Shown here: positions 864-21,710 of the stretch, piece after piece
Layout: the number at the start of each line of letters is the position of its first letter
Position numbering within the stretch: position 1 is the stretch's first letter
Source: a virus
DNA: 22,019 nucleotides
Virus record (IMG/VR): IMGVR_UViG_3300044675_002013
Coordinates: 1-22,019 of that record
Strand: one strand, 5' to 3'
Notes under the pieces: generated by a model
Seen by the model: the letters and a program-made list of their open reading frames with translations, nothing else
Told to the model about the DNA's origin: nothing
Database searches by the model: none
Translations under genes and position numbers: made by a program

Positions 864-880
864 GTTTAAACAAATATACA

Positions 881-910
881 GCAAAAGAAAAGGCCCCACA
901 AGGGGGCCTT
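881..910 (-). terminator. Rho-independent terminator of the major capsid gene
   Basis: Read on the minus strand, AAGGCCCC (910-903), a five-base loop, GGGGCCTT (897-890) and then TTCTTTT form a classic intrinsic terminator. It begins 20 bases after the capsid stop codon, which fits a highly expressed capsid message ending here. Confidence 0.85.
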
Positions 911-929
911 CTCAAATAATCCCGAAGGA

Positions 930-1835
930 TTAAGCGCCGGGGGAACCGAACACGCCCAGTGGGTCAGAGACGCCGAAGCTATAACGCTCACGGGCCTTGT
1001 AACGCACGTTGCCTGTGTCGAAATCGCCGTCCATGCTGTTAGCCAGCGGGGAACGAACGAAGTGCTTCAGGCCGTTGGGCACATCAGTCAACAGGAACCA
1101 AGCGTTGGTGTCAGTCAAGAAGTTGTTGACTGTGTAACCACCGGGGATGGAGCCGTTGTTCTTGATGGCGTTGATGTCGTTGTCAGCAGTGCCGACGCGG
1201 AGTTCAGTTTCCAACAAGCGGGTTGCAACGAATTGCAGCGATGGAGGAACCACCAGCTTCTTAGGCTTAGCTGCAATCAGCAGGCCGCGTTCGTCTGTCC
1301 AAGCTGCGATTTGAATGACGGCGTTTTCCAACGAAGTCTCGTTCAAGTCGGCTGCTGTAGAAGGACGGTTGCTGTTGACGCCACCAGACACCAGAGGGTG
1401 CGCAGTCGAGAACAAGGTCACGCCGTCACCGTAGGTGGGGCCGGTGAAACCGGTGTTCAGGATGGCAGCGGCTTTGACCTGCTTGGTGTAAGACATACCA
1501 CGGGCCAGAGCTTTGGTGTATCGGCTGGACAAGCTGTCATACAGGTTGTCTTCGATGGCCTCTTCAGTGATGGAGAAGCCCAAAGCGATGGTTTCGTGGG
1601 TGTAGCGAGCTGTAAAAGCTTCCTGAGCATTGTCATAAGCGATGGCTGCGCCTTCGTTCTTGACAGGAGCTGCGGAGAAGCCGGACAACTTAACTTCCTC
1701 TTCAAAGCTACGCTCTGAAGTCTCGGTCTCGTAGATTTCCTTGTGCTGCTCGCCGTATTTAGCGTACTCCAAACCGAACAAAGCGTTCAAGCCGGGGAGA
1801 AGTTCTTTCAGCAGTTGTGCGCGTGAAATAGCCAT
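930..1835 (-). CDS. Major capsid protein (HK97-fold, Mu gpT-like)
   Basis: This 301-residue protein is the probable building block of the phage head. It has the features of gpT-like major head subunits: an N-terminal helical region with an acidic E/K-rich stretch, a central helix-rich segment around residues 85-125 ending in AAAILNTGF, and an LFSTAHPL stretch near residue 140 that is typical of this family. Its length is normal for an HK97-fold capsid protein without a large cleaved delta domain. The start at 1833-1835 follows AAGGAG with seven-base spacing. It lies downstream of terminase, portal and scaffold-like genes, in the usual order, and is followed by a strong terminator. The assignment rests on motif recall, not a search. 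Confidence 0.85.
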   Translation of the reverse strand: MAISRAQLLKELLPGLNALFGLEYAKYGEQHKEIYETETSERSFEEEVKLSGFSAAPVKNEGAAIAYDNAQEAFTARYTHETIALGFSITEEAIEDNLYDSLSSRYTKALARGMSYTKQVKAAAILNTGFTGPTYGDGVTLFSTAHPLVSGGVNSNRPSTAADLNETSLENAVIQIAAWTDERGLLIAAKPKKLVVPPSLQFVATRLLETELRVGTADNDINAIKNNGSIPGGYTVNNFLTDTNAWFLLTDVPNGLKHFVRSPLANSMDGDFDTGNVRYKARERYSFGVSDPLGVFGSPGA

Positions 1836-1845
1836 GATTTACTCC

Positions 1846-2442
1846 TTAGACACCAGTGGTGTTGTTGTACTGGTGTGTGTTGATTTTCACCAACAACTCG
1901 GTGAAAGTGTCAGCAGCAGTAGCTGTCTCAGGCACAACGTCGATCACACGGATTGGAAGGGTGGCAGTAGTGCCAGCGCCAGTCAAAGTGACGGCGAAAG
2001 CAGAATTACCGGTGGTGGTGTTTCCAGCGTTCAGGACGAGCGCAAGGTTAGTACCAACAACAGTACGGCCAGCGGTGCCCATGGTCGTGCCAGAGGTTAC
2101 GACAGCAACCTTGAACAGAGCCATCGGGTCGTCAACAACGTAGGCCAGCGCCAGATTGGTGGACGTAGATGCCAAAGCGGGAATGAATTGACCTTGAACG
2201 GTTTGACCGCTCGAGTTCACGTATTGCCCGCCCATGCACACGCCAACAATGTTGCCAGAGTCAGTTGTGGTGGATTTAACGAGAAAACCATCGCTGTTGA
2301 TTACAACGGTATCGCCATCAAAGATGGCAGTGCCGAAGCCAGCAGCTACGGGAATCTGACGAATTGCACCTGCGTACGGCATGCCATCAATACGATTGAT
2401 TGCTTGCAGGCCGAAGGGTGCCGAAACGGTGGGGTAAGCCAT
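1846..2442 (-). CDS. Probable head-associated structural protein, 198 aa
   Basis: The product begins MAYPTVSAPFGLQAIN and is rich in Thr, Val, Gly and Ala, with alternating hydrophobic and polar residues suggesting beta strands. Proteins of this kind sit directly before the capsid gene in many environmental phages. A head decoration or capsid-stabilising role is plausible, but I cannot name a family. The start at 2440-2442 follows TTGGAG with an eight-base spacing. Only ten bases separate its stop from the capsid gene, so the two are very probably co-transcribed. Confidence 0.75.
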   Translation of the reverse strand: MAYPTVSAPFGLQAINRIDGMPYAGAIRQIPVAAGFGTAIFDGDTVVINSDGFLVKSTTTDSGNIVGVCMGGQYVNSSGQTVQGQFIPALASTSTNLALAYVVDDPMALFKVAVVTSGTTMGTAGRTVVGTNLALVLNAGNTTTGNSAFAVTLTGAGTTATLPIRVIDVVPETATAADTFTELLVKINTHQYNNTTGV

Positions 2443-2460
2443 GTTTGGACTCCAAAAAAA

Positions 2461-2922
2461 TTAAATGCCTTTACCGAAAGTGACCTTTGTGCTGCGCTCT
2501 TTGAAAAGCGGCATACGCGGGTCGTTCTCTCGCATGTAGGTGTTATCCACTGATTGCATCTGCGCATCTGCCTGTTGGGCGTAATACGCGTTCCGCTGCT
2601 CGGTGAACTCCACAGGTGTTTTGCAAAGCAACAAGCCACCAACTTCGATGCTGTCGGGGTAGTGGTTTTGCCCACTATTAAACAAGCGAATCTCAGGATG
2701 ATCTGATGCTTTAACGGGCTCCCAGCCCTCTCGCCATTTGCCGGAAGCGTTCATGGCATCAGCCTTGCCAAGCGTGGCAATCCGAATCCAGCGATAAGCG
2801 TAACCCTCTTCCGGTGTCGGATCGGGCAAAAGCTGGGGTGGCATCCATTTTTTTGGACGCTCGGTTGTTTCACGCGTTTGCAGAGCACGAGGCTCGCGGT
2901 TATCAAGTTCTGTTTTAGCCAT
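2461..2922 (-). CDS. Conserved-looking phage protein in the head operon, about 153 aa
   Basis: There are two possible starts. ATG at 2926-2928 overlaps the upstream stop as ATGA, but its GAGGAA ribosome site touches the ATG. ATG at 2920-2922 has GAGG at eight-base spacing and gives a protein starting MAKTELDNREP, which I prefer. The product is hydrophilic with a basic N-terminal part (TTERPKKW), a Trp/Tyr-rich middle (YAYRWIRIAT) and no recognised domain. It sits between the scaffold-like gene and the probable head structural gene, so a role in head assembly is inferred from position only. Confidence 0.75.
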   Translation of the reverse strand: MAKTELDNREPRALQTRETTERPKKWMPPQLLPDPTPEEGYAYRWIRIATLGKADAMNASGKWREGWEPVKASDHPEIRLFNSGQNHYPDSIEVGGLLLCKTPVEFTEQRNAYYAQQADAQMQSVDNTYMRENDPRMPLFKERSTKVTFGKGI

Positions 2923-2924
2923 TT

Positions 2925-3881
2925 TCATTTCCTCATTTCTGCCGCAACTGCACGGGCGTACTGCTCATTCGTCAGTCCCAACCGCTTAGCGAGTTCCACC
3001 TGCGTCCTTGTCAGCACGATCTTTTTAGGCGCTGTGCTGCGAGTTGCTGGTGCAACAACATTCGATTTCTTTGGAGAAGGAGTCGCATCCCCCAAAACTT
3101 CAGTATCCCCGGACTCGAACGCATCCGGAAAGACTTGTTTCATACGAGCATCGATGCGCTCGTAATATTCAGACGATGACGGCGTAATTCCAGATTTAAC
3201 CAGCTTGTTGTGGAACCCCAATGCAAAGCTGGTCATCTCGTCGTCATTGCCAAACCATGTGTTCTTATCTGTCCATTCCTGAGTTTTCGCATCAAGTTTG
3301 GGCCGAACTGGTTCAGCGGTAGGTATTTGTACCTGTTTTTCCTGCTCTTGTACAGGTGCTGGCCGAAAATTGTTTACACGCTCAGCTTTCATCTGAATCG
3401 AGGTCATTTTCAACTGGGCCGCAGTCAAGGCGTCAGAATCGCCACTTTCGTGAGCGGCCTTGAACTCTCGCTGCGCGTCCGCCAGCTCACTGGCTACAAC
3501 CTTTTTAGCCTGCTCGAGGAGGGCGCTCTGGCCTTGGTGCAAGCTGCCTTTGAGTTTTTTGTTCTCTTCGACAACCTGCTGGGCAAGACGTACGGCCTCT
3601 TCGCGTTCCCGCAAAGCAGACTCTTTGGCTCTACGCTCTTCGTGGTAGCCCTTGGTGAAGTGCTGAATGCGTTTACGAACGCCCTCGTCGTACTTGGAAA
3701 GCTCTTCGTCGGTTACATCCTTAGGAGGCTCTTCCATTGGCTTTCTGCCACGGTCCTCCTCGGGGGTGTCGTCAACAATCTCAACTTCTGGCTCGGCCTC
3801 TACAGCCTTTGATCCAGCGCGGGATTGCTTTTCCTCCACCTCGTCGGGGAAGGTAAATTCGGTTTTGTCAATTTCTGCCAT
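2925..3881 (-). CDS. Putative capsid scaffolding protein, 318 aa
   Basis: The composition is that of a scaffold: a strongly acidic N-terminus (residues 1-60 rich in Glu and Asp), a long charged coiled-coil region (about 75-170, many Glu, Lys, Gln and Ala), a low-complexity middle, and a basic C-terminus that could contact the capsid shell. It lies between the portal and capsid genes, where scaffolds are usually found. AAGGAGG four to five bases before ATG 3879-3881 is the strongest ribosome site in the operon. The stop codon of the upstream GroES-like gene is embedded in it, which suggests coupled translation. No enzyme motif is seen. Confidence 0.7.
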   Translation of the reverse strand: MAEIDKTEFTFPDEVEEKQSRAGSKAVEAEPEVEIVDDTPEEDRGRKPMEEPPKDVTDEELSKYDEGVRKRIQHFTKGYHEERRAKESALREREEAVRLAQQVVEENKKLKGSLHQGQSALLEQAKKVVASELADAQREFKAAHESGDSDALTAAQLKMTSIQMKAERVNNFRPAPVQEQEKQVQIPTAEPVRPKLDAKTQEWTDKNTWFGNDDEMTSFALGFHNKLVKSGITPSSSEYYERIDARMKQVFPDAFESGDTEVLGDATPSPKKSNVVAPATRSTAPKKIVLTRTQVELAKRLGLTNEQYARAVAAEMRK

Positions 3882-4487: not shown

Positions 4488-6989
4488 TTAGTTCTCCGGC
4501 GATTTAGCAGCCGGTCTGTTTAAACGCTCCATCAGCTTAGCCTGCATCTTGGCGGATGCTTCCTGTTGCTTTTGGCTCATCTTTTGTTCAAACTCCTGCT
4601 GACGCTGAGCCATCTCTTGCTCGTGCAGTTGTCTGTCCATGATCATTTCTTGCTGCATTTTTGCTGCGGCAACCTCCGGGTTCTCGCCCTGACGGTTTGC
4701 GGCCTCTTGGGCTTTGAGCTGAAGTTCTTGCTGGCGGACAGCCAAGTCGCCCTGAACCTTTTGCTCTTTGATTGAGGCGTCTTTCATCTTGATCTGCAGC
4801 TCTTGTTGCTGCATTTGGACCAGTGGGTCTTGGGCTTGTTGCTGGGCTTGCTGCTGAGCAGCCTGACCTTTGCTCTGAGCTAGAACCTGCTGGGATGCTT
4901 GAGCAACCAGACGCGACAACTGAACCTCAACATCCTCTGGCAGGTCTTCATCGGGCTTGGGCATGGGCACGCCCAACTGCTCTTCGACCTTCTTGCGGTA
5001 GGCAAATGCCAAGTGCTCTGAGATGTGGGCCATGATTTCGGCCTGCATCTTTTGCGCTTGTGGGTTCTGACCAATCTGCGCGGCCATCAGGGGGTCTTGC
5101 ATCAAAGCCATGTGGACTGCGATGTGTGCGTCATGGTCTTGGTAGATGAACGCCTTGGTGGGCTTTCCGTTCAGAAATGCCATGTTCTCGCTGACTGGGT
5201 CGCGTGGCTTCATGTCATCATCAATTGGAACCAGCTTGTCTGCGTTCTTGATTCCCAAGACCTCGATCATCTGACGGTGCAACTGCGGTAGGTCATAGAT
5301 TTGAGGAGCCTGCGCGGCCAACTGAATCACAGCTTGGTACTGCATGATCCGCTGGGCCATTGTGGAGCTGTTTGGATCACTGACCGGGATAACCTCGACC
5401 ATGTCGTAGTCTTCCCGCTTAGCCATGCGGTCACCGCCTTGGGGCTCGTACTCGTATTCGCTTGGGGTGTTGTCGCGGATGATTTCCTTGAGCAGTTTAA
5501 ATTCCTGCTTCATGGCGTAGTGGACCCGGGCTTGAACTGCGCTCATGGTTTTGAGTTGACGCTCCAGCAACGCCAGAGTTGTGCCGACAGGAGAGTTGGC
5601 ACTCATGTCGCTGATGTTCATATCAGCGATGGAGCCCAGACGGCGGCCCTCTTCTGTGATGCGGTCAAGCAGAACAGCCAGAACTTGTGACGGCTCCTTG
5701 TATGGCAGGGGCATGATGTTGTCACGCACTGTGCCACCGGGCACGTCCACATCTCGCCATTCTCCGGGAGCGATTGGGGTGTCATCTCCTTTAATCCGCA
5801 GACCACGCGACTTCAAGCCACCGGGCAGGTTGGACAGAGTTCCTGCGTCCACCAACTGACGGATCAGGGATGTACCCGCACGGGCATAGCCGCCGATCAG
5901 GTGGATGTAGCCGAAACCATAAGCGCCAAAACCGGGTACGTAGTCATACTGAACGAAATGCTGGCGCTTGATTTTTTTCTTGTCGGTCTCGTTCCAGTTA
6001 CGGTAGACCGACAGAACCTTGCTGGTTCCCTTGTCGATGGTAACGATGTAAGGAAGAGCAATGCCATCCTTGTCCTCGTACCCGGGCATGTCGTAGTCCA
6101 CTTGAATCTCAAGGAACTGATAACGCTCGTCTTCGGTGACGGAGTAGCCCTGCTCTTCGGCTTTCTTTTTCTCCACATCGTTGTGGATCATGACGGGCTC
6201 ACCCAGCTCAACATCACGGTAGAAGCCTGCGACCTGAAGCTTCTTGACATCGTTCTTTGTCTTGCGCATCACATGGGTAACGCGCTCGGCAGAGCGAGCA
6301 CCCGATGAGCCGTAGGGGATGACGATGTCTTCGGCGGGGCAGAAGATGGCTACCTGACGGCCAAGGCCGGGATCGAAGTAAACCTTCTTGAAGGCGGAGC
6401 CTGCCAGACCCAAGTTGAACAGCATGCGCTCATGCTCCGGGCGGTATTCAGGCATGCCGTCAACCAACTGGAAGTTCATGTCGGTGCGGACTCGCTCGGC
6501 TGCGTCTTCTTTCAATTTGTCGATTGCGCCAATGATCTGCGTTTTGACGGGGCCTTGAGCGGGGAAGGTCTCAATGATGGTCTCGGACTGGAAGCGGACT
6601 GCGGCTTCTGTCAGGAGGGTGGAGAAGACGCCACAGGCCCCCGTCCAAGGCTCGGTGCGCTCCTCATACTTCATGCCAAGGACCTCGAGCCCTCGCACAT
6701 ACATCTCTACCCATTCTTTACGAGATGAGATGTCAGATTCCACTTCTCCTACCAAGTCAGAGCCAAGCTTTTCAAGCTCACCCTCATCCATAAACTCTGC
6801 CAAGTTGGCCTCGAACGACTCCTCTTCTTCTGGCATAAGGTCGATTGCCATGCCGTCGATGCCGATGATTACATCGTCGGGGTTCTCGATGATGATCTCC
6901 ACTGCGGGGGTGTCATCTTGAATCATGTCTGAGAAATCAATCCCCTCAGGGGCCGGGGAGAGAGACGAAACCATGCTGCTTGTTGCCAT
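4488..6989 (-). CDS. Portal protein, 833 aa
   Basis: The portal forms the dodecameric ring at one head vertex through which DNA enters. Evidence is its size, its position directly after terminase large subunit, and a mixed alpha/beta core of about 620 residues (for example EPWTGACGVFSTLLTEAA near residue 115 and GYIHLIGGYARAGTSL in the middle) like long podovirus or P22-type portals. The final 150 or so residues are a Gln/Lys/Met-rich coiled coil, comparable to the C-terminal barrel extension of such portals. ATG 6987-6989 follows AAGGA with eight-base spacing. The 3' end overlaps the next gene's ribosome site. The subfamily is uncertain. Confidence 0.85.
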   Translation of the reverse strand: MATSSMVSSLSPAPEGIDFSDMIQDDTPAVEIIIENPDDVIIGIDGMAIDLMPEEEESFEANLAEFMDEGELEKLGSDLVGEVESDISSRKEWVEMYVRGLEVLGMKYEERTEPWTGACGVFSTLLTEAAVRFQSETIIETFPAQGPVKTQIIGAIDKLKEDAAERVRTDMNFQLVDGMPEYRPEHERMLFNLGLAGSAFKKVYFDPGLGRQVAIFCPAEDIVIPYGSSGARSAERVTHVMRKTKNDVKKLQVAGFYRDVELGEPVMIHNDVEKKKAEEQGYSVTEDERYQFLEIQVDYDMPGYEDKDGIALPYIVTIDKGTSKVLSVYRNWNETDKKKIKRQHFVQYDYVPGFGAYGFGYIHLIGGYARAGTSLIRQLVDAGTLSNLPGGLKSRGLRIKGDDTPIAPGEWRDVDVPGGTVRDNIMPLPYKEPSQVLAVLLDRITEEGRRLGSIADMNISDMSANSPVGTTLALLERQLKTMSAVQARVHYAMKQEFKLLKEIIRDNTPSEYEYEPQGGDRMAKREDYDMVEVIPVSDPNSSTMAQRIMQYQAVIQLAAQAPQIYDLPQLHRQMIEVLGIKNADKLVPIDDDMKPRDPVSENMAFLNGKPTKAFIYQDHDAHIAVHMALMQDPLMAAQIGQNPQAQKMQAEIMAHISEHLAFAYRKKVEEQLGVPMPKPDEDLPEDVEVQLSRLVAQASQQVLAQSKGQAAQQQAQQQAQDPLVQMQQQELQIKMKDASIKEQKVQGDLAVRQQELQLKAQEAANRQGENPEVAAAKMQQEMIMDRQLHEQEMAQRQQEFEQKMSQKQQEASAKMQAKLMERLNRPAAKSPEN

Positions 6990-6997
6990 GACGATCC

Positions 6998-8491
6998 TTA
7001 ATAGAAGGCGGTTTTGCGCCGGAAATAACGCTGCTCTTCGGGCTCATCAGATTCAATCTGAATGAATCCACCTCTTCTAAATCGAAGCAAGGCTTGGCTT
7101 GTTGAGTCCACAAGGTCGTCGTTTTCGCCGTTTGGGAACGCGGCCAACTCCTCCATCAACTCATCTGCCCATCGGGTTTCTGGACACCAAACAACTCCGG
7201 AAGCGAAAAGGTCTGAGATAGCGTTTACACGCGCAATCTTATCGCTTCCTTTGCCCGGTGTGTACTCCTCAAGCAAGATTCCTGTCTGCCGAAGCTCATA
7301 GATCAGCGGAGCGCCTGCCGCTTTCTTCTCCACAATCAGGGTATCTGGCTCCCATTCCTTGTACATCTCAAAAGCTTTTTGTTTAAGCTCAGGAAACTCC
7401 ATGCGAGCTTTAAACGCATCCAGACAGATGATGTTGGTCTTCAGATTGCCCAAGCTGTCGGGGTGCTCGAAGATTCCCCACGTTGTGCAGGCTGAATAGT
7501 CTGCCCTGTTGGACTTTTCAAAGGCGGTATCCCAGCTTTGGATGATGTAATCGCACTGCGGAGCGGTGTCCGACTCCCAAATGCGCCACTGATCACGCTT
7601 AATGATCGCGCCTTCTTCGGATGTGGGGTTCTGTTGGTACTGCGCTTCCCATTTGGCGACAGGAATCTCAGCCTTGATGGCTTCAAGTTCCGTTTTCTTC
7701 CAAAATCCGGGCCACAAAGGGGTTCCTGAGGGCAAAATCGCAGGAAACTCTATAACTTCCCAGTCATCCACGCCATCTTTTGAGGCATTTTTAAGAATCT
7801 GCCCAGTCAAATCTCTCTTTGACCAGCGCGTCATCACGATGATGATCGCTCCCCCGGGCTGTAAACGCTGACGAGGGCCGGATGTGTACCACTCATACAC
7901 GTTGTCATACACAGCGGGGTTGCCTTGCTTGGCCTCCTGCTCCGAATGCGGGTCATCAATGATCAGAAGGTCGGCTCCCTTACCCGTGACGGCTCCGCCG
8001 ACACCAATAGCGAAGTAGTCGCCGCCTGCGTGGGTGTTCCAGCGACCTGCTGCCTTTGAATCAGAGGACAGTTTGGTGTCAAACACCCGGGAGAAGGCCT
8101 CAGAGGAGACCAAGTTCCTCACCTTCCGGCCAAAGCCTACGGCAAGTTCTGCGGTGTGGGCAGTCTGGATGATCTTTTTCTCCGGGAATCTGCCCAAGAA
8201 CCACGCAGGCAGGAGGTAGGAGGCAAACTCAGACTTGGTGTGCCGAGGAGGCATGTTGATGATGAGCCTCTTGAGTTGCCCCTTGGCAACTCTCTCAAAA
8301 GCATTCGCCATGATCTGGTGGTGCTTCCCAGAGATAAACCCCGGCCACATGTGGGAGGCGTAATAAATGAAGGACTCTTGGCACTTCTCCACTCTGTCGT
8401 ACTCAAGAAGCATCATGATCTTGGCACGCTCCGCCTCATCCACAAGAGGAATCAATGCCCGGTAATCCTCCACCTCCTTACGGCTCATCAT
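6998..8491 (-). CDS. terL: Terminase large subunit
   Basis: This 497-residue packaging motor has all the main landmarks. The Walker A-like loop is MPPRHTKSE (residues 80-88). Walker B is LLIIDD (175-180). The coupling motif TRW is at 221-223. The RNase H-like nuclease domain has D321 in SWDTAF, E388 in IVEKK and an NDDLVD acidic cluster near 458-462. Length is normal and the gene looks intact. The start ATGATG at 8486-8491 overlaps the preceding stop as ATGA. The ribosome site is poor, so translation is probably coupled to the small winged-helix gene. It cuts and pumps phage DNA into proheads together with the small subunit encoded at 9019-9657. Confidence 0.95.
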   Translation of the reverse strand: MMSRKEVEDYRALIPLVDEAERAKIMMLLEYDRVEKCQESFIYYASHMWPGFISGKHHQIMANAFERVAKGQLKRLIINMPPRHTKSEFASYLLPAWFLGRFPEKKIIQTAHTAELAVGFGRKVRNLVSSEAFSRVFDTKLSSDSKAAGRWNTHAGGDYFAIGVGGAVTGKGADLLIIDDPHSEQEAKQGNPAVYDNVYEWYTSGPRQRLQPGGAIIIVMTRWSKRDLTGQILKNASKDGVDDWEVIEFPAILPSGTPLWPGFWKKTELEAIKAEIPVAKWEAQYQQNPTSEEGAIIKRDQWRIWESDTAPQCDYIIQSWDTAFEKSNRADYSACTTWGIFEHPDSLGNLKTNIICLDAFKARMEFPELKQKAFEMYKEWEPDTLIVEKKAAGAPLIYELRQTGILLEEYTPGKGSDKIARVNAISDLFASGVVWCPETRWADELMEELAAFPNGENDDLVDSTSQALLRFRRGGFIQIESDEPEEQRYFRRKTAFY

Positions 8492-8718
8492 AGCGAAGCA
8501 ACTTCCCGAACACTGCGGTCAATTACCCGGATGGAGTTGAACTGGTACGGCTTCACCGCAACCAATCCCTCATCCTTCAATTTATGGATGATCCGGTGAA
8601 TGTTGGACTTACTGCGCATGCTGAGACCCTTGGCAATCACAGCATAAGACGGCGATACACCATGAAGCTTGATGTAAGCCTTGATGAAGTCCAGCACCAA
8701 TTTATGTTTCTCCGGCAT
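8488..8718 (-). CDS. Small winged-helix DNA-binding protein (LexA N-domain-like)
   Basis: The 76-residue product starting MPEKHKLVLDFIKAYI resembles the LexA DNA-binding domain: an opening helix, GVSPSYAVIAKGLSM as helix-turn-helix, then IHRIIHKLKDEGLVAV as recognition helix and wing. It has no LexA protease part. I chose ATG 8716-8718 because GAGG lies five bases upstream; a longer frame from 8775 has no support. It lies between the terminase genes and overlaps terL by four bases. It could be a transcription regulator, perhaps acting on the near-perfect palindrome at 8758-8777 just upstream of it, or it could help recognise DNA ends in packaging. Both roles are inference. Confidence 0.75.
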   Translation of the reverse strand: MPEKHKLVLDFIKAYIKLHGVSPSYAVIAKGLSMRSKSNIHRIIHKLKDEGLVAVKPYQFNSIRVIDRSVREVASL

Positions 8719-8744
8719 AGCCACCTCGTGTAAACAGCGGTAGT

Positions 8745-9002
8745 TTAAACGCAAAACGAACGTTCGTGCGAACATTCTGAAAAATATATATACCCCCGGG
8801 GGGTGGGGAATTTGGAAGCAATGGGGGTATGTTGGGGAATGTGATGGGATGTGTGGATTACAGCGTAAGCGGGAGCGGGGCCGTCAGCGAGCATTTGGGG
8901 TGGTGGGGGATGGGTGGGGTCGCCGTCCCAGCCGTTTACACGCACCGCCTGCCAGCCACAGGTGATAGTTCCCCCTCCCTGATGACCGTTGCCCTTCCCC
9001 AT
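8745..9002 (-). CDS. Doubtful small ORF (85 aa) between the terminase genes
   Basis: An open frame starts at ATG 9000-9002, 16 bases after the terS stop, with GGGGAG about six bases upstream. The product is low-complexity (a run of prolines encoded opposite the G-rich tract, many His, Gly and Cys), has no recognisable motif, and runs over the candidate operator and promoter of the next gene. The good ribosome site is the only positive evidence. The stretch may instead be a noncoding packaging or regulatory region. Confidence 0.25.
   Translation of the reverse strand: MGKGNGHQGGGTITCGWQAVRVNGWDGDPTHPPPPQMLADGPAPAYAVIHTSHHIPQHTPIASKFPTPRGYIYFSECSHERSFCV
8758..8777. promoter_or_regulatory. Near-perfect 20-base palindrome, candidate operator
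   Basis: The two half-sites GAACGTTCG and CGAACATTC face each other around TG, with one mismatched pair. On the minus strand the palindrome lies just downstream of a TATATATA tract (8785-8792) that could be a -10 element. The -35 candidate (TTCCAA, 8817-8812) is weak. It is 40 bases before the start of the winged-helix gene, so autoregulation is a natural guess. Confidence 0.45.
8793..8960 (+). other. G-rich tract with quadruplex potential between terS and terL
   Basis: The plus strand has many runs of three to six G. Four runs at 8897-8900, 8905-8909, 8912-8914 and 8916-8919, separated by one to four bases, meet the usual rule for an intramolecular G-quadruplex. Other runs are at 8798-8808, 8823-8827 and 8834-8837. 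Its location between the terminase small and large subunit genes makes a packaging signal (pac or cos) possible, but no defining cut-site feature is visible. Confidence 0.4.
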
Positions 9003-9018
9003 GCCTCTCCCCTTGCGT

Positions 9019-9657: not shown

Positions 9658-9710
9658 CGCAGTTCCCCTGTAGTTTCATCCAGCCTGTGTGTTTACACAG
9701 CACCGTTCTC

Positions 9711-9738
9711 ATTATCCACAGCCTGTGCATAACGTCAA
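9711..9738 (-). promoter_or_regulatory. Leftward sigma70-like promoter for the packaging and head operon
   Basis: On the minus strand TTGACG (9738-9733), a 16-base spacer and GATAAT (9716-9711) form a good promoter. Predicted start is near 9704, about 47 bases before the terS ATG. One DnaA box overlaps the -10 and another fills the spacer, so DnaA bound to the cluster could block this promoter. Confidence 0.55.
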
Positions 9739-12575: not shown

Positions 12576-12588
12576 TTGGAGACCTGCC

Positions 12589-14052
12589 ATGACTGACCTG
12601 CAACTCAAAATCAAAATCTTGGAATTGCCCATCGCAGTGGTGCTGGGTGCTCATGCCCAGTATGGGCGGGGCACTTTTTCGGGCACACCGTCCGAGCAAA
12701 AGTCCAAGGCCGCTGATTACCTGATCTCTTGCATTCGGGCCAACAACCTGACCCTTGATGAAATCAGGAACGCCACACCCGTGAAGCCCGTGTCCACATC
12801 CGCTCCATCGGTGGATGTGTCTGCCATCACCGCCGTTGCCAACCGTGCCGAGGCGTCTGCCCTTGATGCCCACTCCAGCCTGAGTGCCTTGCGACTCACC
12901 CTGCGGGATGTGGAGAGCCAACTCACCTGTGAGATCAGAGACCGCCGTGATGACATCCTTGATGTCAAAGATGCCCTCGACAAGATGGCCTTCCAAGTCG
13001 GACAGGTTTCCATTGATGACCGTAAGGTTCAAGATGCCGTTGCCAAGGTGGTCGCTGATGCGTTTAAACCCTTTGAGCAAGCCGTGAAAGCCGCCGGGGC
13101 TCAGGCTGTAGTCGCAGACCTTGCATCTGTCCAAGTGGTGGATGTCAAAACCTGCTATGACGCTTTTGGTGTCGATGTGGTGGATACCAAGGGAAACCCC
13201 CTGAACGTGAGCATCTGGAATGACCCGTCTGCCCCTGCGGTTGACCCTCACTTCATCTGGACTGATGACATTCTCCAGCACCTGATCTTGTCTCAGGACT
13301 CGGGTGAGTCGGTCTGGTTCGGTGGGCCAAAGGGTACAGGTAAATCCGAGACCGCCCGTCAGTTTGCCGCCGTTACGGGCCGTGCGTTTAAACGCATCAA
13401 CTTCCACAAGTACACCAGCGCCGAGGATTACATCGGTGCGGTGGGTTTGGAAAACGGGCAGACCGTGTTCAAGCGAGGCGACTTCCTCGCCGCCTTTACG
13501 CACCCCTCGACCGTCATCCTGTTGGATGAGGTGACCAACGCTGACCCCGGTGAACTGGCCCCGTTGAACGGCTTTTTGGAGCCCAACAGCGCCGTGTCAT
13601 TCGGTGGGTCTGTCCAGACCCGTGCCCCCGGTGTGCTGGTGTTTGCCGCTGACAACACGCTGGGCAATGGTGACGATACAGGCCGCTACGCTGGCACACG
13701 CCAGATGAACAGCGCCCTTGTTGACCGCTTCGCCCGTGTGGTGCAGTTTGACTACCTGCCCCTAGCCTCTGAGGTGGAAGCCTTGGTGCGTCACACTGGA
13801 TGCAACCCCAAGCTTGCCCTGCACATCCTTGAGGCTGTCCATGTGGCTCGGCGTCAGGTGCTGACAGGCGAGGTGATAGATGCTCCCTCCATTCGGTCGG
13901 TGATCGCCTTCATTCGTGCCTTGCGTGTCTTGCCTGTAGACAAGGCATGGGCGACAACCATTGCCGCCCGTCAACCAGCCGAGTCCCTTCCGGGCTTGTC
14001 TGCTATCTATGCGTCTTGCATCTGCGAGACAACAATCAACAACTACTTGTGA
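12589..14052 (+). CDS. MoxR/CobS-like AAA+ ATPase
   Basis: The 487-residue protein has an N-terminal region with a long coiled coil (about residues 80-160) and a C-terminal AAA+ domain. Walker A is GPKGTGKS (246-253). Walker B is VILLDE (309-314). The sensor-1 region is FAADNTLGNGDD with N356, and the arginine finger is in SALVDRF (R380). The FKRGDF insert before Walker B and the overall pattern fit the MoxR/CbbQ/CobS branch, which works with a VWA-domain partner, and such a partner is the next gene. ATG 12589-12591 follows TTGGAG; an upstream extension overlaps the SprT gene and is unlikely. It presumably powers remodelling of a protein or metal-cofactor complex. The target is unknown. Confidence 0.85.
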   Translation: MTDLQLKIKILELPIAVVLGAHAQYGRGTFSGTPSEQKSKAADYLISCIRANNLTLDEIRNATPVKPVSTSAPSVDVSAITAVANRAEASALDAHSSLSALRLTLRDVESQLTCEIRDRRDDILDVKDALDKMAFQVGQVSIDDRKVQDAVAKVVADAFKPFEQAVKAAGAQAVVADLASVQVVDVKTCYDAFGVDVVDTKGNPLNVSIWNDPSAPAVDPHFIWTDDILQHLILSQDSGESVWFGGPKGTGKSETARQFAAVTGRAFKRINFHKYTSAEDYIGAVGLENGQTVFKRGDFLAAFTHPSTVILLDEVTNADPGELAPLNGFLEPNSAVSFGGSVQTRAPGVLVFAADNTLGNGDDTGRYAGTRQMNSALVDRFARVVQFDYLPLASEVEALVRHTGCNPKLALHILEAVHVARRQVLTGEVIDAPSIRSVIAFIRALRVLPVDKAWATTIAARQPAESLPGLSAIYASCICETTINNYL

Positions 14053-14059: not shown

Positions 14060-15673
14060 ATGAACATCGAAACCATCCTGACCCGCCCCTCTGTGCGTGG
14101 TCTTGAATTCCGTCTCGGCCTTGAAGCCTACGCCCACAAGGTGGGGTCTGCCCTTGGCCTGTCCCGTGTGCGTGTCCTCTGGAGGGCAGATGTCCAGACT
14201 GCTGGCATCAATGCCAACGGCGACCTGTACTTGGCGGGTGTGCCTGATGATGCCAAGGTGAGCCGCGCCTTGGTGGTCAAGTACGCCGCCTATGTGGTGC
14301 ATGAGTTGTTGCACCACAAGTACACCGACTTTGATGTCATGTCCCCTGAACAGTACATTCGCACCCTGCACAATGCGGTGGAGGATGGCTGGATTGAGAA
14401 CACCGGGATTGCCTCTGGCTTGCTGGGTAACATCGGCCCCCTGCTGGGTGAGATGATCGACACCATGACCCGTGAGGCTTTGGCGACCGTCAAGGATTGG
14501 AACGATCCCCGCCAGTACCCCTACATCCTCGCTGTGCATTGCCGTAAACACGCCACTGTCAAGTGCCCCACCAACCCCAAGTTGACCGCCATCTTCGATG
14601 AGGCCGCACGTTGGTGCTTGACTGCAAAGGACAGCAACCAGACCCTCGCAATTGCCGAGTGGGTTTATGAGCAGATCAAGCAAGCCAGCAAGGATGAGCC
14701 CAAGGGTGATGGCAAGAAAGACAAGGACAAGGACGGCAAGGACGGCCCAAGCAAGCCCTCAGACGGGCCTACAAGCCCCGATCAGCCCGAGGGTGAGGAC
14801 AAGGGTGCAGACAAGGCCGATAAGGGCTCTGACGGCCCCGCTGGCCCCGTGCAATCACCCGAGGGTGTCGAGGCCGACCCCGTGGAGCCCAAGCTTGGCG
14901 AGGGTGGCATTGCTGGCGCTTACTCCACTGACGTTTCACTCAGGGATGAGCGCTTCCACCTGTCCAGCCGCACCATCCCTGACTTGGTCAACGCACCCGT
15001 CCCTGCCAAGCTTCGCTATGAAGTTAAGCGCCTGTTTGATGACTCGGGTCTGTCTGACTTCACCCGCAACCGCAAGGCCGGGGTTGTCAACATCCATGCC
15101 CTGCCAACAGTGGCCACTGGCAACGACCGTGTGTTTAAACGCCGCCTTGAGGTGGAGGGCATTGACTCTGCGGTGGTGATCTGCCTTGATGTCTCGGGCT
15201 CCATGTTTGAGGTGGAGTCTTGGAGACCAAAGCCCCTGATCGGCCCCGCTGTTCAGGCTTGCCGTGCCCTGCTGGAGACGCTGGATGCGGCTGGGGTCAA
15301 GACTGCAGTGCTGTGCTTTGGTGGGCAGATTTCAGTGCCCAAGGGCTTCAACAAGAACGTCAAACAGGCAAGCACCCTGCTGGGCACGGTACAGGCTGGC
15401 GGTGGTACGAACGACTACGCCGCCCTGCGCTACGCCCACCAGATGCTGGCCCAGCGCCCCGAGCGCCGCAAGATCGCCTTTGTGATCACTGACGGGTACG
15501 GCAAGCCTGATGCTGTGAAACAGCAAGTCGCATCGGGTAAAGCCTTGGGTGTGACAACCATCGGCATCGGCATCGGTGCTGATGTGTCGTGGATATACGG
15601 GCAAGCAGTGACTGTCCGGGACATTGCCGACCTCGGCAACGCAAGCTTCAAGCAGATCAAGCTTGCGGCATAA
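14060..15673 (+). CDS. VWA-domain protein with N-terminal HExxH motif (CobT-like)
   Basis: The 537-residue product has three parts. An N-terminal domain carries HELLH (residues 81-85) within YVVHELLHHKYTDF and a later LHNAVEDGWIE that could supply the third metal ligand. A disordered Lys/Asp/Gly/Pro-rich linker spans about 208-282. A C-terminal VWA domain has an intact metal-binding MIDAS: DVSGS (377-381), GGTND with T450, and ITDG with D478. CobT is similar in its linker and VWA part but is not known for an HExxH site. ATG 14060-14062 follows GAGG, which overlaps the stop region of the ATPase gene, so the pair is translationally linked. A hairpin follows the stop. Confidence 0.8.
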   Translation: MNIETILTRPSVRGLEFRLGLEAYAHKVGSALGLSRVRVLWRADVQTAGINANGDLYLAGVPDDAKVSRALVVKYAAYVVHELLHHKYTDFDVMSPEQYIRTLHNAVEDGWIENTGIASGLLGNIGPLLGEMIDTMTREALATVKDWNDPRQYPYILAVHCRKHATVKCPTNPKLTAIFDEAARWCLTAKDSNQTLAIAEWVYEQIKQASKDEPKGDGKKDKDKDGKDGPSKPSDGPTSPDQPEGEDKGADKADKGSDGPAGPVQSPEGVEADPVEPKLGEGGIAGAYSTDVSLRDERFHLSSRTIPDLVNAPVPAKLRYEVKRLFDDSGLSDFTRNRKAGVVNIHALPTVATGNDRVFKRRLEVEGIDSAVVICLDVSGSMFEVESWRPKPLIGPAVQACRALLETLDAAGVKTAVLCFGGQISVPKGFNKNVKQASTLLGTVQAGGGTNDYAALRYAHQMLAQRPERRKIAFVITDGYGKPDAVKQQVASGKALGVTTIGIGIGADVSWIYGQAVTVRDIADLGNASFKQIKLAA

Positions 15674-15891: not shown

Positions 15892-16643
15892 AGACATTCA
15901 CACCAGACTGGATTGCATGGATCAAGACCAACGTGGAGGCTGGTGTAAACAAGGATGCCATCTTCAAGATACTGCTGGACGCTGGTCATGCTCACGACTA
16001 CATCCAAAAGGAGATGGGCTACACACCCAGCCTTTGGCTTGGAGTGTCAGACAACCCTCGCAGGGCATTGCATGAATTCCTTCCGAACTACACCCGCACA
16101 GGCTTTACAAAGCTTCCAGCCCCGACCCTTTTGTTTCGCAAGATACTGGAGTTTTATCGTGTGGGGCTGGAGTCTCAAAAGGACGAGTTTGTGGAGGGGG
16201 AGTTCATTGTCAACCCCTCCACGCCGAGCCGAGCGCCCAGCACCCTGATTGACCTGCCTGATGAACTGCGCACAGAGATACACGACACCCTCAAGCCACT
16301 GATTGAGGCGTGGTGCGGCCTGTCTGTTGAGCCGTCCTATGTGTACGGGATTCGCCTGTACAGGGACAAGGCCGTACTCAAGCCGCACCGTGACCGCATT
16401 GAGACCCACATCTTTGGGGTCATCTTGAACGTTGACCAGAACGTAAGGGAGGACTGGCTTTTGATGATTGAGGATCATGCGTACAACGAGCATCAAATCA
16501 CCCTCAAGCCGGGGGAGATGTTGTTCTACGAGAGCGCCCGTTTAAAGCATGGCAGACCAATCCCGCTCGAGGGTAGCGTCTTCGCCAATATCTTTTCCCA
16601 TTTCACACCCACTGGTTACATACCGCCAAAGGAGACAACATGA
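15888..16643 (+). CDS. 2-oxoglutarate/Fe(II)-dependent oxygenase (prolyl 4-hydroxylase-like)
   Basis: The 251-residue protein carries the iron facial triad of this superfamily: H167-R-D169 in LKPHRDRIETH and the distal H221 in SARLKHGRPIPLEGS, within a predicted double-stranded beta-helix (residues about 150-240). The HGRP-x-PL-x-G and NIF-x-HF-x-P pattern recalls prolyl-hydroxylase-like enzymes. The basic residue usually found about ten positions after the distal His is not present; R223 may replace it. Such enzymes hydroxylate amino acids or modified bases using O2 and 2-oxoglutarate. The substrate here is unknown. ATG 15888-15890 follows AAAGGAG and overlaps the preceding stop. It overlaps the next gene as ATGA. 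Confidence 0.75.
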   Translation: MKTFTPDWIAWIKTNVEAGVNKDAIFKILLDAGHAHDYIQKEMGYTPSLWLGVSDNPRRALHEFLPNYTRTGFTKLPAPTLLFRKILEFYRVGLESQKDEFVEGEFIVNPSTPSRAPSTLIDLPDELRTEIHDTLKPLIEAWCGLSVEPSYVYGIRLYRDKAVLKPHRDRIETHIFGVILNVDQNVREDWLLMIEDHAYNEHQITLKPGEMLFYESARLKHGRPIPLEGSVFANIFSHFTPTGYIPPKETT

Positions 16644-16759: not shown

Positions 16760-16992
16760 TGACCGTAGAGCAGGTGACAGATGATGACTTGTTTAAACGC
16801 ATGAGCAGTGCGTACGACCAAGTGGTGGCGGTGCTTGATGCGCACAAACTTGACAGGGATGAGGGCTTTTCCTTGATGGCGCAGATTCTCTGCCAGTTGT
16901 CGCATGACAACCGTGAGGACTTTATATGGAAGATGGACAAGTTTTACAGCATGGAGCGCTTTTTGCGCCCACAACCAACGGAGGTGCATTGA
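16759..16992 (+). CDS. Unknown small acidic protein, 77 aa
   Basis: ATG 16759-16761 follows ACTGGAG at six-base spacing and overlaps the preceding stop by one base. The helical product begins MTVEQVTDDDLFKRMSS and has no recognised motif. It contains a GTTTAAAC octamer (16791-16798) coding Leu-Phe-Lys-Arg. Its TGA overlaps the next ATG by one base. Confidence 0.7.
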   Translation: MTVEQVTDDDLFKRMSSAYDQVVAVLDAHKLDRDEGFSLMAQILCQLSHDNREDFIWKMDKFYSMERFLRPQPTEVH

Positions 16993-17222: not shown

Positions 17223-17448
17223 GGTCTCGACCCTGATTGACCCCTGCCCTCACTTTGCCCGACAGGCCTTGAAATACTCCCACCTTCTGGAGATCACCAA
17301 TGACACAACTAACGTCAAGCGAAACGAGCGGTTCATCAGGTACAACCCAACCCGGCAGGTCTGGTGCGTTTACACGCAATCAACGACTCCCCAAATCTAC
17401 GGGAGATATACCAACGTGATGAGCGCCGTGTTTCATGCGCTCAAATGA
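17215..17448 (+). CDS. Unknown protein, up to 77 aa, uncertain start
   Basis: This frame ends at TGA 17446-17448, three bases before the terminator stem. A GTG at 17215 overlaps the preceding gene's stop but has no ribosome site; a TTG at 17269 is an alternative. The protein looks genuine (RFIRYNPTRQVWCVYTQ and YTNVMSAVFHAL, aromatic and balanced). In another frame, an ATG at 17300 has an excellent CTGGAG site but encodes only a 39-residue polar peptide ending at 17419. One of the two is probably translated, or both overlap. Confidence 0.5.
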   Translation: MRKVSTLIDPCPHFARQALKYSHLLEITNDTTNVKRNERFIRYNPTRQVWCVYTQSTTPQIYGRYTNVMSAVFHALK

Positions 17449-17500: not shown

Positions 17501-19195
17501 TCAGAAATTGTCCAGATTCTCCGAGTACGTCCCTGCGGTCTTGTTGAAGATCAGGGTTGTCTCGCCTTGAGTGCCTACCCAGCGGTAGCGACTCTTCCAG
17601 ACTGCCAACTCCGTGTAGGTGTCCTTGCGGTGTATCGTAATGCCGCAGTCTGTCTTCGCCCACCATGCCATCGACCCACTGATTGACATCCCGTCTGGAC
17701 GGGGTTGCTCAACACCAGAGCGGTTGATCTTGCTTGGATGGGCGACAAACCATGTGTGAACGTCATGTGCCATGCAGAACTTCTTGACCCGTGTCAGCAT
17801 ATCGCTGATGGCATTGGTCTCGGTCTTGTCCTTGCCTTCCATCTCAATGTAGTTGTACGGGTCAATCACCAGACCCCTCACCCCCATTCTCTTGACCGCC
17901 GCCTTGGCCCTTGTGAGGATTGAGTCCAAGGTGCTGGGCTCTTCGCCGTTGGTGTCGATGAAAAGGAAGTGGTCATTCACCCAGTTAAACGCATCCTTCT
18001 TCACCTGATCGGACATCCTGTCCCGGCCCTCATAGAACGATTGGTGGCTGTACAACTCCATCAGGCGGGTGATGTGGACTTCGGGTTGATTCTCAAAGGA
18101 GCAGATCGCAAACTTCCAATCGGATGATCTTGCGAGGTTGACCATCAACTGATCAACAAAGTTGGACTTGCCTGATGACGGGTAACCTGTGACCACCGTC
18201 AACTGCCCCGGCGCTACGGTGTAAATGTTGTCCACCGATGGGTAGCCAGTGCTGAACCCCTTGCCCGTACCCTTGTTGTACAGGTCGTTGATCTTGTCAA
18301 AAAATGTTGATGCTTCTGAAATGCCGTTGATGGGATAGGCTTCTGCGCCTTCGATGATTTTGTTTAAACGTTCCTTCGGGCCGTCGTCAGCCGTCGGGTC
18401 GTCGTCCATCCATGCTTCGTTTAAATCCTTCCATGCAAACTTGGCGAGTCGGCATTTCTCTTTTCCGATGCGTCTTGCCAGTTCCTCTGCAAGAGCCTGT
18501 CCCGGCCCGTCCTGATCGGTGGCGAGGACAACGTAGGGGGCGGCATCGATGATCTCTCTGGCGTTCCACACAAAGGCAAACTTCTTGTCTTCGGTCGGCA
18601 GCACTTTGCCATCTGCGACCTTGACGGGAGCGCCGCCCGGAACACTGACCACATTGTTTAAACCTGCTTCGATGGCGGTCAAACAATCCATCTCTCCTTC
18701 GACAATGATGATCGGTTCACCCTTGACCACCTGATCGATCCCAAAGAAATCGTGGGCTCCACCTGCGTCCTGTGTGAAGTCCTTCGCTTCGATACTTCGG
18801 TACTTTGCCGAGACGAGCGCCCCGCCTCTGTAATAGGGGAACCCAACTGCCTGTGTGGGTTTGCTGAGACGGGAGAAAAACTTTTCTGCTGAGAACAACC
18901 GCATCCTGTCTGCGGTTTCTTTTGAGATGCCCCGAGACTTGAGCCAGTCGTAGTGGGGAGGTGATAGTTTGTTGCTGGTTATCGTTGGTGACGGGACGGC
19001 GGTCAATTTAAACTCCTTGGGTTGCACCGATCCTGATGCAGAGCAGTGATGGCAGTGGTAGACAACGGCCCCGTCCGTCTTGCGGGTCAGCGTCATGTCT
19101 TTGATGTTTTGTTTTCTGCGGTCTGGAGAACAGAACGGGCAGATCACTCGGGTTGTTTCGTTGAAGTACGTCTCTTGGACGAGGGCTTCAATCAT
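17501..19195 (-). CDS. DNA primase-helicase (T7 gp4/Twinkle type)
   Basis: The 564-residue protein combines primase and replicative helicase. The N-terminal zinc-binding motif is C19-PF-C22 with C48-HH-C51. The TOPRIM primase core has IIIVEGEMD (E166) and ATDQDG (D227, D229). A linker helix region follows. The RecA-like helicase has Walker A GYPSSGKS (337-344), Walker B LVIDPYN (442-448) and a VAHPSK motif (484-489). Length and order match T7 gp4. ATG 19193-19195 follows AGGGG and overlaps the preceding stop as ATGA. It is the last gene before the shared terminator and points to phage-encoded replication, although no DNA polymerase is in the window. Confidence 0.93.
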   Translation of the reverse strand: MIEALVQETYFNETTRVICPFCSPDRRKQNIKDMTLTRKTDGAVVYHCHHCSASGSVQPKEFKLTAVPSPTITSNKLSPPHYDWLKSRGISKETADRMRLFSAEKFFSRLSKPTQAVGFPYYRGGALVSAKYRSIEAKDFTQDAGGAHDFFGIDQVVKGEPIIIVEGEMDCLTAIEAGLNNVVSVPGGAPVKVADGKVLPTEDKKFAFVWNAREIIDAAPYVVLATDQDGPGQALAEELARRIGKEKCRLAKFAWKDLNEAWMDDDPTADDGPKERLNKIIEGAEAYPINGISEASTFFDKINDLYNKGTGKGFSTGYPSVDNIYTVAPGQLTVVTGYPSSGKSNFVDQLMVNLARSSDWKFAICSFENQPEVHITRLMELYSHQSFYEGRDRMSDQVKKDAFNWVNDHFLFIDTNGEEPSTLDSILTRAKAAVKRMGVRGLVIDPYNYIEMEGKDKTETNAISDMLTRVKKFCMAHDVHTWFVAHPSKINRSGVEQPRPDGMSISGSMAWWAKTDCGITIHRKDTYTELAVWKSRYRWVGTQGETTLIFNKTAGTYSENLDNF

Positions 19196-19440
19196 TTCAT
19201 AGCCCCTGAGCTTGTGCGTTTAAACGAGCGGTTGGCTGACGCGGGCTTGGCCACGATGTTGCTGCGGGTTGTTGTGCCACCTTTCGAGAGGGGCCGCTTG
19301 TGGTCTACGTCCTTGCCGTCACCCTTTTGGACAACCCCTTCACGCTCCAACATTCTTCGGGCCTTGTTTCTCTGCGCTCTTTTCTTTTTTACTTCGGGTG
19401 TGCCGTCATAGTTGGCATACTCGGCTTTGTAATCTCTCAT
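19192..19440 (-). CDS. HNH-like nuclease or basic DNA-binding protein, 82 aa
   Basis: I use ATG 19438-19440 because AGGAG lies six bases before it; the longer frame to 19545 overlaps the neighbour and a leader hairpin. The basic product has RAQRNKARRMLEREG and then GKDVDHKRPLSKGGTTTRSN (residues 42-61). This resembles the D-H...N core of short phage HNH proteins, with a later Asn (N70) in ASANRSFKR. The zinc-finger cysteines of larger HNH enzymes are absent. It overlaps the primase-helicase start by four bases. It may nick DNA in replication or packaging; nuclease activity is unproven. Confidence 0.6.
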   Translation of the reverse strand: MRDYKAEYANYDGTPEVKKKRAQRNKARRMLEREGVVQKGDGKDVDHKRPLSKGGTTTRSNIVAKPASANRSFKRTSSGAMK

Positions 19441-21008: not shown

Positions 21009-21037
21009 ACTGTATCACAGCTTTTTGGAACTTGCAA
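21009..21037 (-). promoter_or_regulatory. Leftward promoter of the structured RNA
   Basis: On the minus strand TTGCAA (21037-21032), a 17-base spacer and TACAGT (21014-21009), preceded by TGA as an extended -10, form a plausible sigma70 promoter. It lies about 40 bases downstream of the tRNA 3' end in the same direction. Confidence 0.5.
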
Positions 21038-21079
21038 TAAAAGATTGCGAACGTTCTTAGGGGTTTACCCTATACATGT

Positions 21080-21154
21080 TGGTTGCGGAGGACGGACTCG
21101 CACCGTCGATCTTCTGGTTATGAGCCAGACGGATTACTTCTTTCCCACCCCGCA
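21080..21154 (-). tRNA. tRNA with CAT anticodon (Met or Ile2), CCA encoded
   Basis: The minus strand folds as a tRNA. Acceptor TGCGGGG (21154-21148) pairs with CTCCGCA (21090-21084) with one G-U pair. The anticodon stem is TCTGG/CCAGA with loop CTCATAA (21124-21118). The T stem is GACGG/CCGTC (21107-21103 with 21095-21091, in minus-strand order). Discriminator A is followed by CCA. The D arm is short (GGA/TCC with a nine-base loop lacking GG), and the T loop TGCGAGT departs from TTCRANY. It may be a divergent phage tRNA or a tRNA mimic. CAT could read Met, or AUA if lysidine-modified. Confidence 0.75.
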
Positions 21155-21189
21155 GTTAAAGTTTAAACGATGGTGGCTCAGCCTGCAAG

Positions 21190-21225
21190 CTCATCTGGTG
21201 AGCCTGCGTGCAAGCCTGCGTGCCT
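21190..21225. repeat. Short direct repeats of GCCTGCGTGC
   Basis: The ten-base word occurs at 21202-21211 and 21215-21224, with a partial copy (GCCTGCAAGC) at 21181-21190. They lie between the tRNA and the RusA-like gene, near GTTTAAAC (21161-21168) and GTGTAAAC (21229-21236). Their role is unknown; they could be protein sites or remnants of recombination beside the tRNA. Confidence 0.35.
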
Positions 21226-21233
21226 TTCGTGTA

Positions 21234-21265
21234 AACTGCACTGGCGGGAACCTCCCCCCGCAGTT
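21234..21265 (-). terminator. Hairpin after the RusA-like gene
   Basis: AACTGC (21234-21239) and GCAGTT (21260-21265) are a perfect six-base inverted repeat with an inner GGGA/TCCC pairing. It starts ten bases after the RusA stop. On the minus strand no long T run follows, so it is a weak terminator or an RNA-processing hairpin before the tRNA. Confidence 0.4.
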
Positions 21266-21275
21266 GCTTCTCCTT

Positions 21276-21710
21276 TTAGCCCCGGCCCTTGCGCTGGGGC
21301 TTCTTTTTTGGGGCAACCTCTTCTATCTTCTCGATCATGATCTCTGCCCGAGGGTTCTCAGGATCAAGGCCCCAGTACGCATGGCGCTCTTTGACCTGAC
21401 GGTCGTTCTCATATATCAGTCCCTGCATCAGGTCGAGGATCAGCGTCTCGTCCAAGTCAGGTCTGCGGCTTGCGTAATAGATATGCAGCGTCACCCGAAG
21501 GTCGCCGGTCATAAGGCAGGCGAGCGGCCTGCATTGCTGTTTAAACACATCTGAGTAGTTGAGCGCCTTTTCGGACTTGATGAGCCGGGACACCCCGCCG
21601 AAACGTACCATCCTGCGACTGTTGCTTTTTGATGCTGGCTCACCAAAAATAATTTGCACTAGGGCTTGCAATTCTGTTGTATCATCACTATTATTGAGTT
21701 TCTCAGTCAT
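21276..21710 (-). CDS. RusA-like Holliday junction resolvase
   Basis: The 144-residue protein has the RusA catalytic pattern: RRPDLDETLILDLMQGLIYENDRQV (residues about 82-106, shown here only to mark the motif). It aligns with the RusA core R-DLDN...D-x-QV, with D85, D87 and D103 as the probable metal-binding acids. A basic C-terminus (KKKPQRKGRG) follows. RusA-family enzymes cut branched DNA made in recombination and replication, before packaging. ATG 21708-21710 follows AAAGG. It is transcribed away from the PD-(D/E)XK nuclease gene only 20 bases off. Confidence 0.85.
   Translation of the reverse strand: MTEKLNNSDDTTELQALVQIIFGEPASKSNSRRMVRFGGVSRLIKSEKALNYSDVFKQQCRPLACLMTGDLRVTLHIYYASRRPDLDETLILDLMQGLIYENDRQVKERHAYWGLDPENPRAEIMIEKIEEVAPKKKPQRKGRG
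21666..21694 (+). promoter_or_regulatory. Rightward promoter inside the RusA-like gene
   Basis: TTGCAA (21666-21671), an exact 17-base spacer and TATTAT (21689-21694) form a good sigma70-like promoter for the nuclease gene at 21731. Predicted start is near 21701, giving a leader of about 30 bases. The promoter lies within the first codons of the divergent RusA-like gene, so the two genes may compete. Confidence 0.5.

Follow-up and report, generated by a model that had tools for sequence, protein, structure and literature searches.

The window analyzed here, which is the whole 22,019-nucleotide stretch of the IMG/VR virus record IMGVR_UViG_3300044675_002013 (positions 1 to 22,019), is a piece of an uncultured phage of ~62 kb and is densely marked by the 8-bp palindrome GTTTAAAC and the related words GTTTACAC and GTGTAAAC. 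At the level of sequence, comparison with other genomes establishes that these words are in excess and conserved, that they go together with a SprT-like protein (encoded in the window at 11997–12575, + strand), that this association depends on a motif in the tail of the protein, and that variants of the motif match variants of the word. The SprT-like protein probably binds the words directly, and they would serve as operators and roadblocks.

Within the window, GTTTAAAC occurs 13 times (864–871, 4518–4525, 8743–8750, 11717–11724, 13062–13069, 13386–13393, 15133–15140, 16791–16798, 18362–18369, 18656–18663, 19218–19225, 21161–21168, and 21539–21546). GTTTACAC/GTGTAAAC occurs 10 times, as GTTTACAC on the + strand (3372–3379, 7223–7230, 8934–8941, 9017–9024, 9691–9698, 10175–10182, and 17368–17375) or on the − strand (8728–8735, 15943–15950, and 21229–21236), and the 13 + 10 sites counted by eye in the original prediction are thereby all confirmed. 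An order-2 Markov model of the window gives an expectation of 0.18 copies for GTTTAAAC and 0.45 for GTTTACAC/GTGTAAAC, and 100 dinucleotide shuffles of the window yield a mean of 0.75 and a maximum of 4 for both words together, in agreement with the earlier estimate of fewer than one copy; among all 8-mers of the window, GTTTAAAC shows the strongest over-representation. Markov models of order 4–6, which had been proposed as a background, were also run and predict 5–14 sites, an expectation that is invalid as a null because these models are trained on the word itself. The extended site consensus is YGTTTAMACR, to which the flanks contribute a weak Y...R, and one GTTTA half must be intact, as GTGTACAC is absent. 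Another word, AACGTTCG, is also over-represented in the window (7 vs. 0.43 expected).

The excess continues into the rest of the phage and its relatives, on which the original prediction had made its reading depend. The 63.4-kb contig G001, with 99.9% identity to the window over 21 kb, carries 23 copies of GTTTAAAC, and near-complete contigs of the GTTTAAAC type (55–63 kb) carry 21–54 copies each vs. 0–3 of the reversed word, which served as the control in the family, metagenome-assembled genome (MAG), plasmid, and prospective counts. Nearly all of the more than 120 IMG/VR relatives retrieved for comparison have the excess; a word-less clade (G031, G027, G029, L305, and L308) shows none. The terminase, portal, and capsid genes of the window are related to those of HTVC027P, 023Pt_psg01, and DSL-LC04 (terminase identity at most 58%), and these phages are without word excess. 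In G017 and G035, which form one clade, GTTTAAAC falls to 0–1 copies and is replaced by ATTTAAAC (22 and 32 copies), and G032, G033, and L117 tend toward ATTTAAAC too. G035 and G032 contain 32 and 34 copies of ATTTAAAC, vs. 1 and 2 of GTTTAAAC and 5 and 5 of ATTTAAAT, and because ATTTAAAC stands so far above the other two, an asymmetric site appears to be favored, not independent half-sites.

Conservation of the sites against their surroundings, a check suggested at the outset, was found between genomes of 78% DNA identity, where GTTTAAAC is unchanged at 12 of 17 sites (71%) vs. ~20% of equally AT-rich 8-mers, and some of the replaced sites are variant sites, for example GTGTAAAC and ATTTAAAC. 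Coding sites use both frames that lack an in-frame TAA (73 and 70), sites also lie in intergenic DNA, and spacing is close to random, with no regular spacing or phasing found. Given this conservation, the use of two frames, and the near-random spacing, the sites are under selection and probably functional at their positions, not a compositional by-product. An origin as a by-product of codon bias was rejected, since the word is maintained in intergenic DNA as well as in two reading frames and on either strand.

Within the family, the word excess accompanies a block of three genes encoding the SprT-like protein, an AAA+ ATPase, and a VWA protein. Block and excess occur together in 65 of 66 contigs that span TerS to primase, and the sole exception, the word-less G031, lacks all three genes, the block that is missing from the word-less clade. 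This clade retains a LexA-like protein and a ribbon-helix-helix (RHH)-like protein with conserved DNA-binding elements. G031 is nested in the freshwater family in the primase tree; its lack of the genes and words is most simply a loss because marine relatives have both. These marine relatives carry words and the SprT-like protein in the absence of the LexA-like and RHH proteins, as in the near-complete G041 and G042 with 38–40 copies of GTTTAAAC. The two partner genes in the window encode a MoxR/CobS-type AAA+ ATPase (12580–14052, + strand; PF07728, E=1.6e-14) and a CobT-like VWA protein (14060–15673, + strand; PF13519, E=8.8e-13), the latter with an HExxH motif that is present in 51 of 52 homologs. 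This pair was rejected as the reader of the words, since the annotations of the word-bearing phages Zeta1847, MaGuCo, and Mica, examined in full, list the SprT-like protein and no MoxR/VWA partner, and CobS/CobT phages without SprT (ICP2, CRP-810, T5S1, and Mae-Yong1326-1) lack the word.

Unrelated carriers were found by searching named phages for the SprT-like protein. GTTTACAC is strongly enriched in Zeta1847 (22 vs. 0.08 expected, in a genome of 71% GC), MaGuCo (15 vs. 0.22), Crewmate (18 vs. 0.06), and Bogota (39 vs. 0.04), and this non-palindromic form predominates in actinophages, while Mica carries GTTTAAAC (7 vs. 0.09). The word is likewise enriched in R5C (9 vs. 0.02 in 48 kb; 17 over the whole genome) and Venkman (34 vs. 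1.71), and plain counts are 33 in Honk and 16 in Pan1; in seven named phages without SprT, it is missing or at background. SprT-bearing plasmids of Sphingomonas, Sphingobium, and Caulobacter contain 3–6 words in 22–32 kb, with none of the reversed control. In three of the plasmids (L493, L494, and L495), the sprT gene contains one copy of GTTTAAAC (at 7634, 2491, and 4667 of the records). In a prospective test, contigs were picked by the pattern of the protein tail, and the 57 usable ones, which lie outside the terminase/AAA family, contained 278 words where 12.9 were expected; the reversed control fell short of its expectation (15 vs. 31.4).

The SprT-like protein of the window has 192 amino acids and matches phrog_6361 (E=1.6e-39), a family of unknown function whose members frequently go by the name of SprT-like protease or "transcription elongation protein SprT"; relatives are annotated as SprT-like protease. 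Its match to the Pfam SprT-like family (E=0.004) scores 17.5 bits, below the cut-off of 25.6, and "SprT-like" therefore names a resemblance only. An AlphaFold2 model with a predicted local distance difference test (pLDDT) score of 94.9 shows a domain of mixed helices and strands, after which comes a short tail rich in strands, and its top solved-structure match is the metallopeptidase abylysin (4jiu), a minigluzincin, with a Foldseek probability of 0.99 but an E-value of 4.5e-3; zinc-ribbon proteins are among the lower-ranked matches. A minigluzincin-like domain with a possible metalloprotease active site (HELCH, an HExxH motif at 12240–12254, + strand, intact in the window protein) is thus predicted to precede a C-terminal zinc ribbon (12438–12548, + strand), the putative reading head, which contains the motif Q152-x-T154-R155 and R169. 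Residues Q152, T154, R155, C161, R169, and C182 are invariant across 36 homologs.

Among carriers of the protein, the words go with the tail motif. The SprT relatives in the word-less CN1, PSA20, Dismas, Eden, and Franklin22 have the N-terminal domain in common and have lost Q-x-T-R and the following arginine, and among 32 records, word enrichment occurs in 16 of 21 with Q-x-T-R vs. 0 of 11 without it (Fisher P=7e-5, relatedness ignored). For example, L536 encodes a SprT that shares 51% identity with the Dismas protein but carries QGTR, and the word is present. The site consensus also shifts along with the variable residue, again with relatedness ignored: QGTR, QSTR, and QTTR go with GTTTAAAC (43–71-fold, vs. 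3–7-fold for ATTTAAAC), QATR is intermediate (27-fold and 15-fold), and QPTR favors ATTTAAAC (35-fold vs. 10-fold for GTTTAAAC). Residue 100 of SprT, which changes from K/R to A in the shifted-word clades, was also considered, but this change is no more than suggestive, given that three of the five clades belong to a single lineage.

The clearest placement of sites is in Zeta1847: of its 22 sites, 16 are no more than 45 bp away from a gene start that is preceded by a gap, compared with 1.6 expected at random. Many of the Zeta1847 sites occupy the same place in a recurring promoter, gacttgcgcgagtGTTTACACgcgtgtatgat, where they fall in the spacer that separates −35 from −10; some sites in MaGuCo lie 3′ of −10 (promoter elements judged by eye in both). 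This placement is an operator architecture. In the mechanism that we propose, the C-terminal zinc ribbon (Q-x-T-R ... R) would read YGTTTA(A/C)ACR in double-stranded DNA, and selection would have spread and maintained the sites over the phage genome. Bound sites that overlap promoters would most likely function as operators and all others as roadblocks, so that one protein could control many transcription units in the manner of stoperators; in the window's family, the AAA+ and VWA proteins would probably remodel or remove the bound protein, although this step is a guess. By analogy, we infer that binding most likely represses or blocks transcription, and any role of proteolysis would likewise be putative.

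Several observations weigh against binding by the SprT-like protein as the explanation. The loss in G031 is a single event that took three genes together, the clade counts ignore phylogeny, L117 has QGTR yet a shifted word, and the Q-x-T-R carriers Alexa, ep3, KA2-1, L582, and L583 are weakly or not enriched at the threshold used. Only Zeta1847 shows a clear operator placement, which is less pronounced in MaGuCo (4 of 15 sites), most sites in the window are inside genes, and a promoter scan of window positions 8500–12100 returned two promoter-like matches, no more than chance. In addition, 19 homologs out of 105 have lost the HExxH triad, many of these in word-rich genomes such as G005 (54 copies of GTTTAAAC), so the words can be maintained without catalysis.

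The last point also bears on a different use of the same protein, in which the words would be loading or activation sites for a protease that clears proteins such as host silencers or crosslinks, with the AAA+ and VWA proteins as unfoldase helpers, and transcription would not be the point. The predicted minigluzincin fold with its zinc ribbon, the AAA+ and HExxH-bearing VWA partners in the window's family, and the precedent of SPRTN, a DNA-dependent metalloprotease (PMC5127644), speak for this possibility; with word-rich genomes that lack the triad and with the Zeta1847 sites lying within promoters, it is unlikely. That some other protein reads the words and SprT only accompanies that protein is more doubtful still: association differs from binding and phages carry further DNA-binding genes, but the phages, plasmids, and hosts are highly diverse, no other common DNA-binding gene was seen among them, and the association hinges on the tail motif of SprT, whose x residue follows the word variant.

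Two small proteins of the family were also weighed as readers. The LexA-like winged helix-turn-helix protein (76 amino acids; 8488–8718, − strand; PF01726, E=2.2e-8) might be an autoregulated repressor, as its own upstream region holds the densest cluster of sites, 5.4 times the mean density, at −15 and −35 to −46; in the window, words lie at 8728–8735, directly upstream of its start codon, and at 8743–8750, also upstream of the gene. It is nevertheless absent from the word-bearing G041 and G042 and present and intact in word-less G031, so that a role as reader is very improbable; as this dissociates the gene from reading, the dense upstream sites mark a regulated gene, and the LexA-like gene is a probable target of the words. 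The RHH-like protein (107 amino acids, encoded outside the window) occurs in nearly all freshwater family genomes that cover its region, and 8-bp palindromes fit RHH dimers. The marine genomes and G031 dissociate it in the same way, since it is absent from the word-bearing marine genomes searched and present in the word-less clade, and as it also shows no DNA-facing change in the shifted-word clades, it is an extremely unlikely reader.

A host-wide word, or a restriction-modification or methylation mark, has equally little probability. GTTTAAAC is the recognition site of PmeI. Such a strongly excessive octamer palindrome also resembles HIP1 of cyanobacteria (PMC4390886). The Burkholderiales MAG that carries a relative, the one MAG from which a host was inferred, contains, in 3 Mb, 68 copies of GTTTAAAC and 109 of the reversed word, the word is found in phages of many hosts, and it vanishes in the family with the loss of SprT. 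As for methylation, the gene shared by word carriers is SprT and no methyltransferase common to them was seen, the non-palindromic GTTTACAC is dominant in actinophages, and the word tolerates A or C while its outer base varies between clades. The original prediction had left the choice between a host-wide repeated word and a DNA-binding, methylating, or genome-maintenance protein of phage or host; of these, the data best support recognition by a DNA-binding protein of the phage, the host-wide and methylation parts are not supported, and the SprT gene and its tail motif had been overlooked.

Other features of the window and its relatives stand beside this argument. Some of the GTTTAAAC sites lie within the AAA+ gene (13062–13069 and 13386–13393), the VWA gene (15133–15140), and the primase/helicase gene (18362–18369 and 18656–18663), and upstream of the last (19218–19225). 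Between TerS and the LexA-like gene (8757–8811, − strand), a terminator-like conserved element, CCCCCCGGGGGTATATATATTTTT, is followed by a terminator-like GAACGTTC palindrome, and many relatives share this arrangement ahead of their LexA-like gene. In the relative G002, one seventh of the genome (13818–22487; L143–L144) encodes a single 2889-amino acid protein, and most of the family has homologs of it. On a 62.5-kb contig of a Porticoccaceae MAG (L429–L432), a relative that lacks this SprT has other words in excess, AATTGAAC (36 vs. 2.8) and TCAATTGA (17 vs. 1.8), and a different, MoxR-like-looking ATPase (L180, 3–1040), perhaps a second word system. The word-less relatives L445–L446 and L447 contain non-palindromic repeats, ACCTAACA/CCTAACAA (13–14 vs. 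~1) and AGGATGCC (11 vs. 0.5), and a moderate, unexplained excess is seen in the CobS/CobT phages Mae-Yong1326-1 of Microcystis (CCAGGACA, 51 vs. 4.4; L346) and CRP-810 of Roseobacter (CGCAGACG, 30 vs. 4.5; L345).

The association connects phrog_6361 with one particular DNA word in phages and plasmids that are unrelated to each other and makes a DNA target of the family predictable from sequence, with carriers in culture that include Zeta1847, MaGuCo, Bogota, R5C, Mica, and Venkman. A search of the open-access literature found nothing on phage genomes carrying this word or on its link to SprT. If binding is true, it would be new for a SprT-type zinc ribbon to read DNA in a sequence-specific way, the Q-x-T-R position would be a candidate specificity code, and phages without a known genome-wide regulator would have a candidate for one. 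More tentatively, such proteins may constitute a class of regulators that is widespread among mobile elements. In this class, a SprT-type zincin with a zinc-ribbon head for a short word would replace helix-turn-helix repressors, could cleave itself or be cleared by MoxR/VWA to switch the genome on, and would have become a pseudo-protease in some lineages.

Among known systems, HIP1 (GCGATCGC) is likewise a hugely iterated octamer palindrome, but it is cellular and linked to a methyltransferase, whereas the word described here is borne by mobile elements and linked to SprT. The AAA+ and VWA genes beside the SprT gene in the window's family resemble the MoxR/CobS-VWA/CobT pairs of other phages, although the CobS/CobT phages without SprT that were tested lack the word. 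The protein shares with SPRTN/SprT a metalloprotease sequence, a C-terminal zinc-binding part, and a link to DNA; SPRTN is not known to read a DNA sequence, whereas here a genome with the protein can be expected to contain a specific word, and some homologs do without the active site. A parallel also exists with the stoperators of cluster A mycobacteriophages, for which a single repressor binds both promoter sites and sites located elsewhere, and the consensus of the sites changes along with the repressor (PMC6550527). As in L5, Bxb1, and Trixie, many short conserved sites are spread genome-wide, some in promoters and most not, and the consensus drifts together with the (here proposed) reader. 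The one-orientation bias expected of stoperators is not seen in the window's family, where GTTTAAAC is palindromic; GTTTACAC is skewed in Zeta1847 (16:6) and MaGuCo (11:4) and without skew in Bogota (18:23). A further difference from cluster A is that no lysogeny genes were seen in the window's family. Stoperators are 13-bp asymmetric sites read by a helix-turn-helix repressor that confers immunity and blocks elongation, whereas the present sites are 8–10-bp near-palindromes with a SprT/zinc-ribbon protein as the probable reader, and unlike stoperators, this word system spans unrelated phages and plasmids.

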